From Deltaproteobacteria bacterium RBG_16_49_23 (GTDB lineage: Bacteria > Desulfobacterota > BSN033 > UBA1163): DNA of 37,510 nt. Made by a program: the position numbers and the translations under genes. Shown in pieces: positions 22,970 to 26,835 of this stretch; positions within the stretch are counted from its first letter, which is position 1, and every line of letters starts with the position of its first letter. A model generated the notes under the pieces. That model did no database searches. It saw nothing but the letters and a program-made list of their open reading frames with translations, and was not told where the DNA came from. The stretch spans positions 1-37,510 of the forward strand of contig MGQQ01000075.1 in NCBI GenBank assembly GCA_001798855.1, given 5' to 3'.

Positions 22970-25009
22970 TTAAGAAATCATCTTATCATATCGGGAGAAT
23001 TGCATCGAAAAGGTTCCCCGCCCCTGAGTCAGGGACCTTAGGTCCGTCGAGTAACCGAACATCCGGGTTAGGGAGGAGAGCGCTTTGATCAATGTGATCT
23101 TTCCTTTCGGGGTGATCGCCTCAACCGAACTTCTCCGCGCTTTCAAATCACCCACCACCTCTCCCATGAACTCTTCCGGGATGATGATGTTCACCTCCAT
23201 CATCGGCTCCATTAACACCGGTTGAGCCTTCCGGCAGCCTTCCCTTAAGGCATTCGATGAGGCGATCTTGAGGGCGAGAGGAGAGGGATGATTCGGGTCG
23301 GCATTGGCTTTTAACAGAGTAATACGAAGGTCTGTCAAAGGATAGCCCATGATCACCCCGACGGTGGAACCCTCTCTCACTCCTTCTTCAATGGAGAGAA
23401 GGCATTCCGCCGGCAGGGCGCCCTCGGGAACCTCGGAATGAAATTCGATCCCCCTCCCCCTGGCATTGGGCGAGATACGTAGGAAGACTTCCCCGAAAAG
23501 CTTGGCCTCTTCCAACTCCTTGGCAAATTTGAAGGAAGCCTCCGCCTCCTTCTCCACCGTCTCCCGGTAGACGACCTGCGGCCTCCCCACATTGACTTCG
23601 AGATGGTATTCGATCAGGAGACGGTTGACCAGAACATCGAGATGCAATTCCCCCATTCCAGAGATGATGGTCTGCCCCGTATCTTCGTCTAACTTGACCT
23701 GAAAGGTGGGATCTTCATCACTCAACTTTTCGAGGGCTTGAGCGAGTTTCTCCTGATCACGGCCTGTCTTGGGCTCCACAGCTACGGACATCACCGGCTT
23801 ATAAAAATCGATCGGTTCAAGGAGAATGGGATGATCTCGCTCACAAAGCGTATCCCCGGTGGTGGTCTCCTTCAAACCCATCACAGCCACAATCTCGCCT
23901 GTCTTTGCTTCTTCCACCCGGGTCCGCTGATTGGCGTGCATCTGGAAGATTCTCGAAATCTTTTCGCCCTTTTTCAATCTCGGGTTATAAACCTCTCCGC
24001 CCACTTTGAAAACGCCGGAGTAAATCCGGATATAGACCAGCTTCCTCCCCTCATCCATCAGCACCTTGAAGGCTAAGGCGCTGAAGGAGGCTTCCTCCTC
24101 CTGGGTTCTTTCCTCCCTCTCGCCGGTGATGGGATGGGTTCCTTCGGCAGGAGGGATATCGAGGGGAGAAGGAAGATAGTCCACAATGGCATCGATCAGG
24201 GGCTGGATCCCCTGATTCTTCAAGGCCGCTCCGCAGAGAACGGGAACAGCCTTCATCGAGATGGTCGCCTTTCTGAGAGCCCCTTTCATCTCCGGTTCGG
24301 AGATTTCCTCCCCATTGAGGTATTTTTCCATCAAATGGTCATCCAGCTCGGCAAGGGATTCGATCAATTTCGACCTGTGGAGCGCAACTTCCTCTTCCAT
24401 GTTTCCGGGGATGGTGATCTCCTTGAAGTCAATGCCCAGGCTGTGCTCGTCCCAGACAATCCCTTTTGAGCGGATGAGATCGACCACTCCGATAAACCGG
24501 TCTTCCATGCCGATGGGGATCTGGGTCACCAGCGGATGGGCTCCCAGCCGGTCAACCATCATCCTGACGGTTCCAAAAAAATTTGCGCCGAGCCGGTCCA
24601 TCTTATTGATGAAGGCCAATTTGGGCACATGATATTTGTCCGCCTGGTGCCAGACTGTCTCTGACTGGGGTTCCACTCCCTCCACCGCACTGAAAATGGC
24701 GATGGCTCCGTCGAGGACCCGGAGGGAGCGCTCTACTTCCATGGTGAAATCGACATGGCCCGGCGTATCGATGATGTGGATGGTGTTTCCTTTCCATTCC
24801 ACCTTCGTCACGGCAGAGGTGATCGTGATCCCCCTCTCCTGCTCCTGGACCATCCAGTCCATGACCGTTGTCCCTTCATCCACTTCGCCCATCCGGTGGA
24901 TCTTCCTTGTATAGAAGAGGACCCTTTCGGTGACGGTTGTCTTTCCGGCATCGATGTGAGCCATAAACCCGATATTTCTGGTTCGAGCGAGTCGCTTCTC
25001 TCCGGCCAT
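22970..25009 (-). CDS. fusA: elongation factor G, stand-alone copy
   Basis: A 679-aa translational GTPase with all EF-G domains. G1 is AHIDAGKTT, switch I includes ERGITITSA, G3 is DTPGHVDFT, G4 is NKMDR, and domain IV and V blocks follow (HLDVLVNRLL, EEFMGEVVGDLKARR). EF-G drives ribosomal translocation and, with RRF, recycling. The gene is not in an str operon (no rpsL, rpsG or tuf nearby), so it may be a second, divergent paralogue; the C-terminus FSRYDKMIS differs from the usual HYDEVP type. The start at 25009 gives the usual EF-G N-terminus; ATG 25018 is an alternative. A strong promoter lies 40-70 bp upstream. Confidence 0.93.
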   Translation of the reverse strand: MAGEKRLARTRNIGFMAHIDAGKTTVTERVLFYTRKIHRMGEVDEGTTVMDWMVQEQERGITITSAVTKVEWKGNTIHIIDTPGHVDFTMEVERSLRVLDGAIAIFSAVEGVEPQSETVWHQADKYHVPKLAFINKMDRLGANFFGTVRMMVDRLGAHPLVTQIPIGMEDRFIGVVDLIRSKGIVWDEHSLGIDFKEITIPGNMEEEVALHRSKLIESLAELDDHLMEKYLNGEEISEPEMKGALRKATISMKAVPVLCGAALKNQGIQPLIDAIVDYLPSPLDIPPAEGTHPITGEREERTQEEEASFSALAFKVLMDEGRKLVYIRIYSGVFKVGGEVYNPRLKKGEKISRIFQMHANQRTRVEEAKTGEIVAVMGLKETTTGDTLCERDHPILLEPIDFYKPVMSVAVEPKTGRDQEKLAQALEKLSDEDPTFQVKLDEDTGQTIISGMGELHLDVLVNRLLIEYHLEVNVGRPQVVYRETVEKEAEASFKFAKELEEAKLFGEVFLRISPNARGRGIEFHSEVPEGALPAECLLSIEEGVREGSTVGVIMGYPLTDLRITLLKANADPNHPSPLALKIASSNALREGCRKAQPVLMEPMMEVNIIIPEEFMGEVVGDLKARRSSVEAITPKGKITLIKALSSLTRMFGYSTDLRSLTQGRGTFSMQFSRYDKMIS

Positions 25010-25047
25010 CTTTCGCATCCACCATTCAGAAGAGATATATCTCGGTA

Positions 25048-25076
25048 ATATTAAAGGGATTTTTACGAAATGTCAA
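25048..25076 (-). promoter_or_regulatory. strong sigma-70 promoter of the EF-G gene
   Basis: Minus strand: TTGACA (25071-25076), 17-bp spacer, TAATAT (25048-25053). Transcription would start near 25041, about 25-30 nt before the start codon. The inverted-repeat element at 25092 begins 15 bp further upstream. Confidence 0.7.
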
Positions 25077-25091
25077 AGAGATTTAAGAAAA

Positions 25092-25219
25092 GAGATTTCT
25101 GAAAAATCATAGAAATCTCTGATTACACGGATTAGAAATCCATTGGTAAATAAAAGAAAATCTGTGGAATCATTTAAATCTGTGTAATCAGAGAGTGAAA
25201 AGTAGTTTTTCAGAACTCT
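25092..25219. mobile_element. inverted-repeat element between two divergent promoters
   Basis: The left arm reads GATTTCTGAAAAATC then CTCTGATTACACGGATTA. The right arm in reverse complement reads GAGTTCTGAAAAACT then CTCTGATTACACAGATTT. The arms are about 42 bp and the whole about 128 bp, without coding capacity. It sits exactly between the EF-G promoter on one side and the aminotransferase leader promoter on the other, and resembles a small MITE. Confidence 0.55.
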
Positions 25220-25231
25220 CTCAAATCTTGC

Positions 25232-25260
25232 TTGACAATTCCCGCCCGATATGTTTTAAA
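25232..25260 (+). promoter_or_regulatory. promoter of the aromatic attenuator/aminotransferase unit
   Basis: TTGACA (25232-25237) with a 17-bp spacer to TTTAAA (25255-25260), or 18 bp to TTAAAT. The -35 is perfect and the -10 matches four of six. Transcription would start near 25266, close to the leader-peptide ribosome site. Confidence 0.6.
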
Positions 25261-25280
25261 TTAAGTCAAAGGGAAAAGCT

Positions 25281-25355
25281 ATGGGAAATATTATTAATTT
25301 TTACTACTTTTATTTTTATTTTTATAAAGGTCACCTACAGAGGCTCTCCCGGTAG
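25281..25355 (+). CDS. Phe/Tyr leader peptide (attenuator)
   Basis: A 24-codon frame from ATG 25281 to TAG 25353, preceded by AAAGGGAAA at a spacing of about 7. After MGNIIN, residues 7-15 are FYYFYFYFY, nine aromatic residues in a row (four Phe, five Tyr), followed by KGHLQRLSR. Such runs of the regulated amino acid are the mark of attenuation leader peptides, for example the Phe run in the enteric pheA leader. Ribosome speed over codons 25299-25325 would report charged tRNA-Phe and tRNA-Tyr. The stop codon falls in the loop of the first downstream hairpin, as needed for coupling translation to RNA folding. Chance AT-rich sequence is the main alternative, but promoter, ribosome site, hairpins and terminator all fit. 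Confidence 0.8.
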   Translation: MGNIINFYYFYFYFYKGHLQRLSR

Positions 25356-25446
25356 TGGGATAGTGAGCCATGGGTGACCGGTTCGGCCCCATGGCTTTTC
25401 CATTTTTAAGCCATAGGGGCAACCTTATGGCTTTTTTATTTTTTAA
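25329..25446 (+). promoter_or_regulatory. transcription attenuator with alternative hairpins and U-tract terminator
   Basis: Segments: 1, GGTCACC (25329-25335) and GGCTCTCCC (25342-25350); 2, GGGA (25357-25360), GAGCC (25365-25369) and GGTGACC (25373-25379), all complementary to segment 1. A, AGCCATGGG (25366-25374, overlapping segment 2) pairs exactly with B, CCCATGGCT (25388-25396). B also pairs with C, AAGCCATAGGGG (25408-25419). C pairs with D, CCTTATGGCTT (25423-25433), which ends in a T-rich run to 25446, a terminator. Proposed logic: a ribosome stalled on the Phe/Tyr codons leaves 1:2 intact, B pairs C and transcription continues. A ribosome reaching the stop codon (in the 1:2 loop) breaks 1:2, A pairs B and C:D terminates. 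The pairings are seen; the logic is inference. Confidence 0.75.
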
Positions 25447-25478
25447 GATTGGGGGGATGAAGAAAGGAGATTTAAGGC

Positions 25479-26672
25479 ATGGCCATTTCAAGGAAAGTGA
25501 AAAACGCATTAAATGGCGCTTCCTGGGTGAGGCGGATGTTCGAGGAAGGGGAGGAATTGAAGAAACGTTATGGTGATGAGAATGTCTTCGACTTCTCCAT
25601 TGGAAATCCGAATCTCGAACCGCCTGCCTCTCTGAAGAAAGCCTTGAAGGAACTCGCTGACAATCCCATTACAGGGATGCACCGCTATATGTCCAACAGC
25701 GGTTACAGTGAGACAAGAAAGGCCATTGCCGAATATCTCAACGAAGAATCGGGGCTTACTTTCGGCGAGAATCATGTCGTCATGACGGTCGGGGCGGCCG
25801 GAGGACTCAATGTCGTTTTGAAAGCAATCCTGGATGAAGGGGATGAAGTGGTTGTCCCTTCTCCTTACTTTATGGAATTTAAATTCTACATTGAGAATTC
25901 TGGCGGGGTGATCCGTCTTGTGGATTCCCATGAGGACTTTTCTCTTAACCTGAAAGCCATCGAAAAGGCCATCCATGCCAAGACCAAAGCCGTTCTGATC
26001 AATTCTCCGAACAATCCCACGGGAGTTATCTACGATGAGGACTCCCTCAATAAGTTGGGAAAGTTACTGGAAGCAAAGAGTCAGGAGATAGGGAAAACCA
26101 TCCATCTTATTACCGATGAAGCCTATCGCCGGATCGTTTACGATAACATTAAGCTTCCCATCGCCTTTAAATATTATCCTCACACGATCCGGGTCACTTC
26201 CCATTCAAAAGATCTTTCTCTTCCCGGCGAGCGGATCGGCTATATTGCGGTCAATCCCGTTTGCGAAGAGATCGATGACATGATGGCGGCCATTGTCTTT
26301 GCCAACCGCACCCTCGGGTTCGTCAATGCTCCGGCATTGATGCAGAGGCTGGTTGCCCCCCTTCAGAGGAATTCGGTCAATATCAGGGAATACGGAGAAA
26401 AAAGAGACCTCTTTTACAACGCATTGAGGGAATTCGGTTACCAGGTGGTGAAACCCCAGGGAGCCTTCTATCTCTTTCCAAAGGCCCCGATCGAAGATGA
26501 CGTTCTCTTCGTAAAACAACTCCAGGCAAAGAGGATTCTCACCGTTCCGGGAAGAGGGTTTGGAAAACCCGGCCATTTCCGGATTGCCTATGCCGTTGAA
26601 AAAAAGACAATCGAGGGGGCCCTTCCGGGATTTAAAGAAATTGCAGATCAATACGGAATGAGAAAAGGATAG
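25479..26672 (+). CDS. class I/II aminotransferase, predicted aromatic amino acid aminotransferase
   Basis: A 397-aa fold-type I PLP enzyme. Motifs include FDFSIGNPNLEPP, the NSPNNPTGVIYD block, DEAYRRIVYD (PLP pyridine contact) and SHSKDLSLPGERIGY with the Schiff-base lysine. FRIAYA near the end holds the conserved substrate-carboxylate arginine. By sequence alone it would be called an aspartate- or aromatic-type aminotransferase. The Phe/Tyr attenuator directly upstream argues that it makes phenylalanine and tyrosine (from phenylpyruvate and hydroxyphenylpyruvate, or prephenate). It stands alone after the terminator, with AAGGAG about 11 bp before ATG 25479. Specificity is inferred from regulation, not from active-site analysis. 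Confidence 0.9.
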   Translation: MAISRKVKNALNGASWVRRMFEEGEELKKRYGDENVFDFSIGNPNLEPPASLKKALKELADNPITGMHRYMSNSGYSETRKAIAEYLNEESGLTFGENHVVMTVGAAGGLNVVLKAILDEGDEVVVPSPYFMEFKFYIENSGGVIRLVDSHEDFSLNLKAIEKAIHAKTKAVLINSPNNPTGVIYDEDSLNKLGKLLEAKSQEIGKTIHLITDEAYRRIVYDNIKLPIAFKYYPHTIRVTSHSKDLSLPGERIGYIAVNPVCEEIDDMMAAIVFANRTLGFVNAPALMQRLVAPLQRNSVNIREYGEKRDLFYNALREFGYQVVKPQGAFYLFPKAPIEDDVLFVKQLQAKRILTVPGRGFGKPGHFRIAYAVEKKTIEGALPGFKEIADQYGMRKG

Positions 26673-26741: not shown

Positions 26742-26835
26742 ACCCCATCCCCCTCCTAACCTCCCCCTTCAAGGGGGAGGAAGGTAGTAATTTCCCTCCC
26801 CTTCAGGGGGAGGGGCAGGGTGGGGGTGGGGGAAA
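26742..26835. repeat. GC-rich hairpin repeat F
   Basis: ACCCCATCCCCCTCCTAACC, CTCCCCCTTCAAGGGGGAGG, then CCCTCCCCTTCAGGGGGAGGG (with a GGGTGGGGGTGGGGG tail). Block order is the same as in repeat D (15061-15203) but without the nested palindrome. It occupies the gap between the aminotransferase and the lipoprotein genes; the remainder of 26673-26907 shows only a short leader with AGGAGGG before ATG 26908. Confidence 0.65.

Follow-up and report, generated by a model that had tools for sequence, protein, structure and literature searches.

The trp, his, phe and TnaC leaders form the general background to regulation by a leader peptide. The enteric pheA leader has a regulatory codon run in its leader peptide, alternative hairpins and an intrinsic terminator before the gene, and its codons are for Phe only. 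In leaders of the trp/phe type, four segments give a single 3:4 terminator, with a 2:3 antiterminator when segment 1 is covered. The his operon leader has a longer chain of alternative pairings (segments A–F), with an even number of segments, one terminator and a stalled ribosome that covers the first segment. The leader described here resembles that of pheA in its codon run, alternative hairpins and intrinsic terminator, and that of his in having more than four segments. Unlike pheA, it has codons for both Phe and Tyr, five segments, two probable terminators and a lone aminotransferase gene, and it has no match at gathering score to Rfam amino-acid leader families. Unlike the his leader, it has an odd number of segments and a terminator-like A:B hairpin. 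As the number of segments is odd, a free first segment favours read-through.

Two further systems share single elements with this leader. The rimP leader has a second, upstream terminator in tandem and a potential antiterminator (PMC2965389), and is alike in combining these within one leader; no leader peptide with regulatory codons is described for rimP in the accessible part of that article. Attenuators have also been listed ahead of aromatic supraoperons, including one in Desulfovibrio vulgaris which begins with aroA' and aroB' (PMC1173090). The likeness there is in the predicted attenuation of aromatic genes, the alternative entry route and the deltaproteobacterial host, whereas the accessible part of the source gives no leader peptide, five-segment scheme or lone aminotransferase. 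Searches of the openly available literature, largely without subscription papers, found no description of this leader or of a five-segment twin-terminator leader-peptide attenuator. The locus would add a conserved alternative wiring to textbook attenuation, for which the searched literature shows no such leader in this group. It also raises the question of whether the first hairpin of a leader can be an antiterminator, so that blocking that hairpin, and not the release of its partner strand, stops transcription.

The window is the 37,510-nucleotide stretch of contig MGQQ01000075.1 from Deltaproteobacteria bacterium RBG_16_49_23 (GCA_001798855.1), and the features of the locus are collected in Table 1. 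Judged from sequence, the leader is very probably a ribosome-mediated attenuator responding to the charging of tRNA-Phe and tRNA-Tyr, with the aminotransferase gene under the control of its twin terminators and read-through when either amino acid is short.

Table 1. Features of the leader and the aminotransferase gene, in window positions
Feature	Position	Strand	Description	Basis
Predicted promoter	25232..25260	+	TTGACA 25232-25237; TATGTTTTAAA 25250-25260, containing a TG-preceded TTTAAA-type -10	sequence and conservation
Leader ribosome site and start codon	25272..25285	+	14-bp pairing possible with B (25388-25401)	
Leader peptide ORF	25281..25355	+	24 codons, MGNIINFYYFYFYFYKGHLQRLSR, stop 25353-25355	aromatic leaders in relatives
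Regulatory codon run FYYFYFYFY	25299..25325	+		sequence
Segment 1 (GGTCACCTA)	25329..25337	+	within leader ORF; pairs with segment 2	covariation in 49 loci
Segment A (GAGCCATGGG)	25365..25374	+	5' arm of putative terminator T1	
Putative terminator T1	25365..25407	+	A:B hairpin, then T-rich tail TTTTCCATTTTT	
Segment 2 (TGGGTGACC)	25371..25379	+	overlaps end of A	covariation with segment 1
Segment B (GCCCCATGGCTT)	25386..25397	+	3' arm of T1; candidate antiterminator strand for T2	
Segment C (AAGCCATAGGGGC)	25408..25420	+	partner of B (bulged A) or of D	
Putative terminator T2	25408..25445	+	C:D hairpin and T-tract	
PLP-dependent aminotransferase	25479..26672	+	NCBIfam PRK06836; 397 aa	573.4 bits vs curated cut-off 376

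The promoter, ribosome site, 24-codon aromatic frame, exclusive pairings and terminator proposed in an earlier note on this DNA are all found in place on direct reading. AAAGGG reads as the ribosome site of the leader ORF, which starts at the ATG at 25281. TTGACA and a TATGTTTTA-like block are kept upstream of relatives, supporting the predicted leader promoter, which a simple consensus promoter scan did not list (no site on the + strand in 25000–25520). The C:D stem (25408–25433) has 11 pairs and a 4-nt loop, with C at 25408–25418, the loop at 25419–25422 and D at 25423–25433, and the T-tract that follows ends at 25445, 33 bp before the aminotransferase ATG. A:B was likewise absent from the output of the promoter scan, its 13-nt loop being longer than the limit of 8. 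The 8 nt after the A:B stem contain at least five T in 48 of 49 copies, compared with 5.5% of 8-nt windows sampled from the same loci. From these sequence features, A:B very probably acts as a terminator itself (T1), with C:D as the second (T2), a character of A:B that the earlier reading missed. Since 25371–25374 are common to A and segment 2, the 1:2 and A:B pairings are mutually exclusive. The locus has two features of leader-peptide attenuators: a conserved short ORF with a regulatory codon run and, by sequence evidence, exclusive pairings and a predicted intrinsic terminator before the gene.

In the proposed mechanism, a shortage of Phe or Tyr would make the ribosome stall soon after it enters the aromatic run and before it reaches segment 1. 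That segment would then pair with segment 2, occupying the end of A and preventing T1. With T1 blocked, B would pair with C, T2 would not form and transcription would continue. As segment 2 overlaps the end of A, the 1:2 helix would both disable T1 and free B to disable T2. When Phe and Tyr are plentiful, the ribosome would reach the leader stop codon and cover segment 1, so that A:B and C:D form as two terminators in series and transcription stops. We infer promoter use, stalling, termination at T1 and T2, and the precedence of early-formed helices as steps of this attenuator model.

Region 25260–25480 folds at −76.2 kcal/mol compared with a shuffled mean of −53.3 (z −5.2), with 0 of 200 shuffles as good. 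RNAalifold on 21 copies returns A:B and C:D with both-side changes in 7 of 21 pairs, or in 8 of 24 when a minor helix is included. A covariance model trained on 21 copies was used to search 50 sources, which were chosen as already having a match adjoining the aminotransferase, with contig repeats reached by different routes counted once and L034, cut on its 5' side, left out. This yielded 53 matches at E 1e-8 (alignment A2), a threshold missed by L029. In A2 as a whole (53 rows, four of them antisense), pairing holds in 95.0% of cells, and 4 of 10 A:B pairs and 8 of 11 C:D pairs show changes in both partners. The whole-structure values are reached by 0 of 500 shuffles in an alignment that is fitted to the A:B and C:D stems it scores. 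Removal of the four antisense rows leaves the 49-copy set. Conservation of B:C is weak as independent evidence, since most of this pairing follows from the two hairpins being near-repeats of each other.

The 1:2 helix was tested separately in 49 loci by anchoring on CAC and GGG. Four flank positions taken jointly pair in 141 of 196 cases, while shuffles average 79 with a maximum of 111 (0 of 5000 reach the observed value). The copies are counted as independent here though they are related, and with a handful of clades the covariation events that are independent are few. The three flank positions beside the core pair in 45, 39 and 40 of the 49 loci (shuffles 24.2, 19.6 and 20.5), and recurring forms are GGT/ACC, TTG/CAA, GCT/AGC and CTG/CAG. 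The two outer flank positions show no covariation, with 17 of 49 and 9 of 49 paired (p 0.27 and 0.74). The misplaced anchor of one locus (L026) is kept in these counts and plays no part in the folding of shortened transcripts.

The 49-copy set includes 47 aromatic leaders found by script, with five to eight aromatic residues per stretch of eight, two of which (L093 and L162) also carry Trp. Another (L184) fell outside the limits of the script and was found by eye, and L010 is cut by its contig. Comparison with relatives supports the earlier note's reading of a leader-peptide attenuator with mixed Phe and Tyr codons, and the check which that note proposed on homologous loci finds the aromatic run and covarying stems (1:2, A:B and C:D) kept.

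Evidence for the direction of the switch comes from folding leaders with a modelled ribosome, in which the covered nucleotides are removed. The ribosome was assumed to cover 13 nt, counted from where the A-site codon begins. Folding was tested on whole leaders (n=20) and shortened transcripts (n=47). With an early stall and C made, B:C exceeds A:B in 43 of 47 shortened transcripts. With the ribosome at the stop or last aromatic codon, 1:2 exceeds A:B in 0 of 47 at the end of T1, and C:D exceeds B:C in all 20 whole leaders. In the window, an early stall gives 8.8 expected pairs for 1:2 against 0.1 for A:B, and 10.9 for B:C.

Other folding results run against the model. A stall at the last aromatic codon folds into the terminating form in whole and shortened transcripts alike. 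When the transcript reaches just to the end of T1, an early stall leaves 1:2 ahead of A:B in no more than 19 of 47, and with a stall at the first Phe codon whole leaders have C:D ahead of B:C in 14 of 20 and A:B ahead of 1:2 in 9 of 20. The window's whole leader is similar, with C:D ahead of B:C under an early stall (6.8 vs 4.3 pairs). With the ribosome at the stop and C made, B:C exceeds A:B in 18 of 47 transcripts, the window among them (7.1 vs 3.0 expected pairs); in these, T1 would have to terminate ahead of the synthesis of C, unless D displaces B. Folding of whole leaders at equilibrium was rejected as the sole basis of the switch, as C:D exceeds B:C in 14 of 20 leaders after an early stall and in 18 of 20 with no ribosome. 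Given these mixed results, the scheme depends on each helix forming as soon as its strands have been transcribed, and on T1 acting ahead of C; the modelled folding supports the direction of the switch only if the first helices to form prevail. The earlier note had also given the 1:2 hairpin a pro-antitermination sign, which comparison with relatives supports and folding alone does not settle.

A textbook four-segment attenuator of the usual sign, in which the stalled ribosome covers segment 1 and A:B is the induced state, is an unlikely alternative reading of these data, even though the aromatic run immediately precedes segment 1, which in the model is covered by a ribosome stalled at the last aromatic codon. 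A:B leaves C free to form T2 and has its own T-rich tail in 48 of the 49 loci. Further, covering segment 1 gives A:B and C:D in 20 of 20 whole leaders, so that under the four-segment scheme starvation would switch the gene off. The single 3:4 terminator of the trp/phe type, with a 2:3 antiterminator on covering of segment 1, is not what is found at this locus.

Two remaining alternatives both appear very improbable. The peptide itself might arrest its ribosome when it senses Phe or Tyr in free form, much as TnaC does with Trp, and a G-H-P-stop ending is indeed frequent in close relatives. However, the window's peptide ends in GHLQRLSR, that of L018 in GHL and that of L016 in GRP, and many distant relatives have extra codons after HP. 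The conserved HP is explained by the pairing of CACCC with GGGUG, and loci with other gene contexts retain a pairing with different peptides. It is just as hard to credit that two ordinary tandem terminators insulate the aminotransferase next to a chance reading frame. The hairpin cores are near-repeats and the covariance model also matches the opposite strand of many loci, but relatives conserve the aromatic frame together with its spacing, most codon changes exchange Phe and Tyr codons among themselves, and 1:2 covaries. Both terminators also lie downstream of a conserved promoter-like sequence, though it is one unlisted by the consensus scan. The ribosome-mediated attenuator with twin terminators is the reading preferred here.

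No Rfam family matches the window at gathering score. Among the four matches up to E 10 in 25220–25480, the best is the 'pan' motif, with 19 bits of the 36.2 needed. The T-box family is matched neither at gathering score in the window nor up to E 10 in 25220–25480. The covariance model finds no further copy in the window's genome below E 0.3, the best other hit having E 0.33.

A run of seven TWY (Phe/Tyr) codons occurs at one place in the window's genome, as three overlapping matches, and no second Phe/Tyr run of such length was found there. The reversed pattern has nine matches, so the uniqueness of the run alone is no test of significance. Pairwise comparison of 16 near copies, the window's among them, gives 320 codon differences over the final six codons of the run, the pairs not being mutually independent. 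Of these differences 292 remain within Phe/Tyr, and first positions do not change. The last F/Y codon lies 9 nt from the CAC core of segment 1 in 43 of 47 copies, or 44 of 47 with the L026 anchor corrected. In the window this distance is 6 nt, since it has a Tyr codon where most near relatives encode Asp, Gly or Asn. Most near relatives also have the leader stop directly after segment 1. It is missing there in the window, which has CTACAG where L018 has CTATAG, and the leader runs on for five codons.

The ribosome site of the window's leader could also pair with B, at −25.6 kcal/mol; of 25 other ORF starts in the window, the best reaches −17.3. When the leader is untranslated, such modelled pairing could favour T2 in the window. 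Sequestration of the start site by B was rejected as a general feature, being significant in only 7 of 47 loci where ~2 are expected by chance, and is retained as a trait of the window and a few other loci.

Relatives of the aminotransferase are encoded at 36 loci in named records, mostly from Syntrophaceae and other deltaproteobacterial metagenome-assembled genomes (MAGs). A close homologue (E 1e-120) is present in 93 of the 148 genomes searched, including the window's own. In the window's family, 16 of 17 genomes have the gene and 15 of these 16 have an aromatic leader at the corresponding place. In the sixteenth (G001) the contig begins inside segment 1 (L010), and another contig end of that genome, with the same core (L175), shows the leader. 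Upstream regions of ~500 nt at most were examined in 85 of the 93 genomes, and at least 24 of these have the attenuator leader before the aminotransferase, including clades more distant than the window's family. The other 61 show the element by neither the aromatic-frame scan nor the covariance model. Four genomes (G045, G082, G116, G143) have two adjacent aminotransferase genes, with the attenuator preceding the first, and named Syntrophorhabdus-like loci are arranged likewise. One further homologue (L139, in G073) has a Tyr-rich short frame (YYYY) upstream without a covariance model match.

The best match of the aminotransferase among solved structures is 3ele, and the name of its family, PRK06836, gives no substrate. 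The earlier note took it for the terminal aromatic aminotransferase, a role that is not secured, as neither chorismate synthase nor prephenate dehydratase was found in the window's genome. Of the 17 family genomes, 11 gave no chorismate synthase and 10 no prephenate dehydratase, the window's genome being among both, while each was found in 14 of 14 controls. Four genomes reported as 97–98% complete (G004, G007, G008, G013) yielded neither. Prephenate dehydrogenase is above cut-off in none of the 17, including those with an aro operon. The window's family looks split between members with and without this operon, although binning losses in MAGs could mimic an absence of shikimate genes. The missing genes make a simple end-of-shikimate role for the aminotransferase doubtful in the window's organism. 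Aminotransferase and leader are both retained in 10 of the 11 family genomes without detected chorismate synthase, pointing to a possible non-shikimate source of Phe and Tyr.

Salvage of aryl acids or arylpyruvates to make Phe and Tyr would be in keeping with a gene induced when these two run short. Indolepyruvate ferredoxin oxidoreductase alpha is above cut-off in all 17 family genomes compared with 2 of 14 controls; this enzyme can instead serve amino-acid breakdown. A literature search on aryl-acid assimilation, judged by titles and the start of abstracts, found nothing on this salvage. Elsewhere in the window's genome (G000:C125:2569-5672, L002 in part), a second aminotransferase gene lies just upstream of an indolepyruvate oxidoreductase alpha-like gene (below cut-off) on the same strand. 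In the window itself, C-rich and G-rich stretches resembling an inverted repeat are seen by eye 3' of the aminotransferase, at 26745–26830.

Similar wiring, which the earlier note did not raise, is found before other genes. At E 0.01 the covariance model has matches in 152 of 395 genomes of the phylum, which is deltaproteobacterial and Thermodesulfobacteriota-like as judged by named records. Of 37 matches inspected, some of them repeats of loci already known, 16 precede the aminotransferase, one is at a contig end and 20 precede something else. The latter include DAHP synthases above curated cut-offs (L166, L168, L169, L172, L183, L189, L190, L194) with Phe/Tyr/Trp leaders or, in L168 and L190, Trp leaders. 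Both trpE (L170) and a TrpB-like gene (L181) are above cut-offs and have Trp leaders, leuA (L185) has a Leu-rich frame and ilvB (L182) an Ile/Leu/Val-rich frame, these two also being above cut-off. In G006, of the window's own genus, an ADTH synthase (L193, above cut-off) heads an aro operon (L215, G006:C292:15700-28500) which continues with DHQ synthase II, aroD, aroE, aroA, aroC and pheA, together with a shikimate kinase-like gene below cut-offs. This operon, which has the ADTH synthase/DHQ synthase II entry route, is itself headed by a Phe/Tyr/Trp leader attenuator of similar design; in the window's genome its ADTH synthase is matched only by a relative at 31% identity. Some assignments are looser: the genes at L186, L188 and L191 are named from N-terminal likeness only, L173 is an acyl-CoA dehydrogenase-like locus named without a family scan and lacking a clear leader, and L192 is another such locus, below family cut-offs, with an Ile-rich frame.

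At the 20 other-gene loci, the best pairing of a stretch 5' of A with the 3' side of A beats single-base shuffles (p < 0.05) in 17, the exceptions being L181 (0.124), L182 (0.064) and L173 (0.06). At most of these loci the pairing strand falls late in the leader frame, and at L181, L188 and L185 it starts at or just past the leader stop. This test indicates similar wiring common to operons whose segments 1 and 2 differ.

A broader proposal, possible though somewhat doubtful as a whole, is that five-segment twin-terminator attenuators form a phylum-wide class in which the arrival of the ribosome triggers both terminators. The first hairpin would be the antiterminator, with its 5' strand in or just after the end of the leader frame, so that arrival at this hairpin, and not stalling, would trigger two terminators at once. 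The class would be re-used ahead of aromatic, Trp, Leu and Ile/Val genes, with regulatory codons that differ between them. In the window's organism, the attenuator would guard an aminotransferase that outlasted the shikimate pathway and converts scavenged aryl acids into Phe and Tyr, for example through arylacetyl-CoA and indolepyruvate oxidoreductase acting in reverse.

Leader codons may also serve as a clue to function, linking amino acids to otherwise unassigned aminotransferases, transporters and CoA ligases. At L187, a PaaK-like gene, only part of which lies in the stretch analysed (592.7 bits; cut-off 646.3), follows a Phe-rich leader and twin hairpins, hinting at regulated aryl-acid assimilation. 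A Phe/Tyr leader with twin hairpins at L176 precedes a gene without a family match at the limit used; its N-terminus suggests an ABC transporter substrate-binding protein, possibly of an aromatic amino-acid importer.
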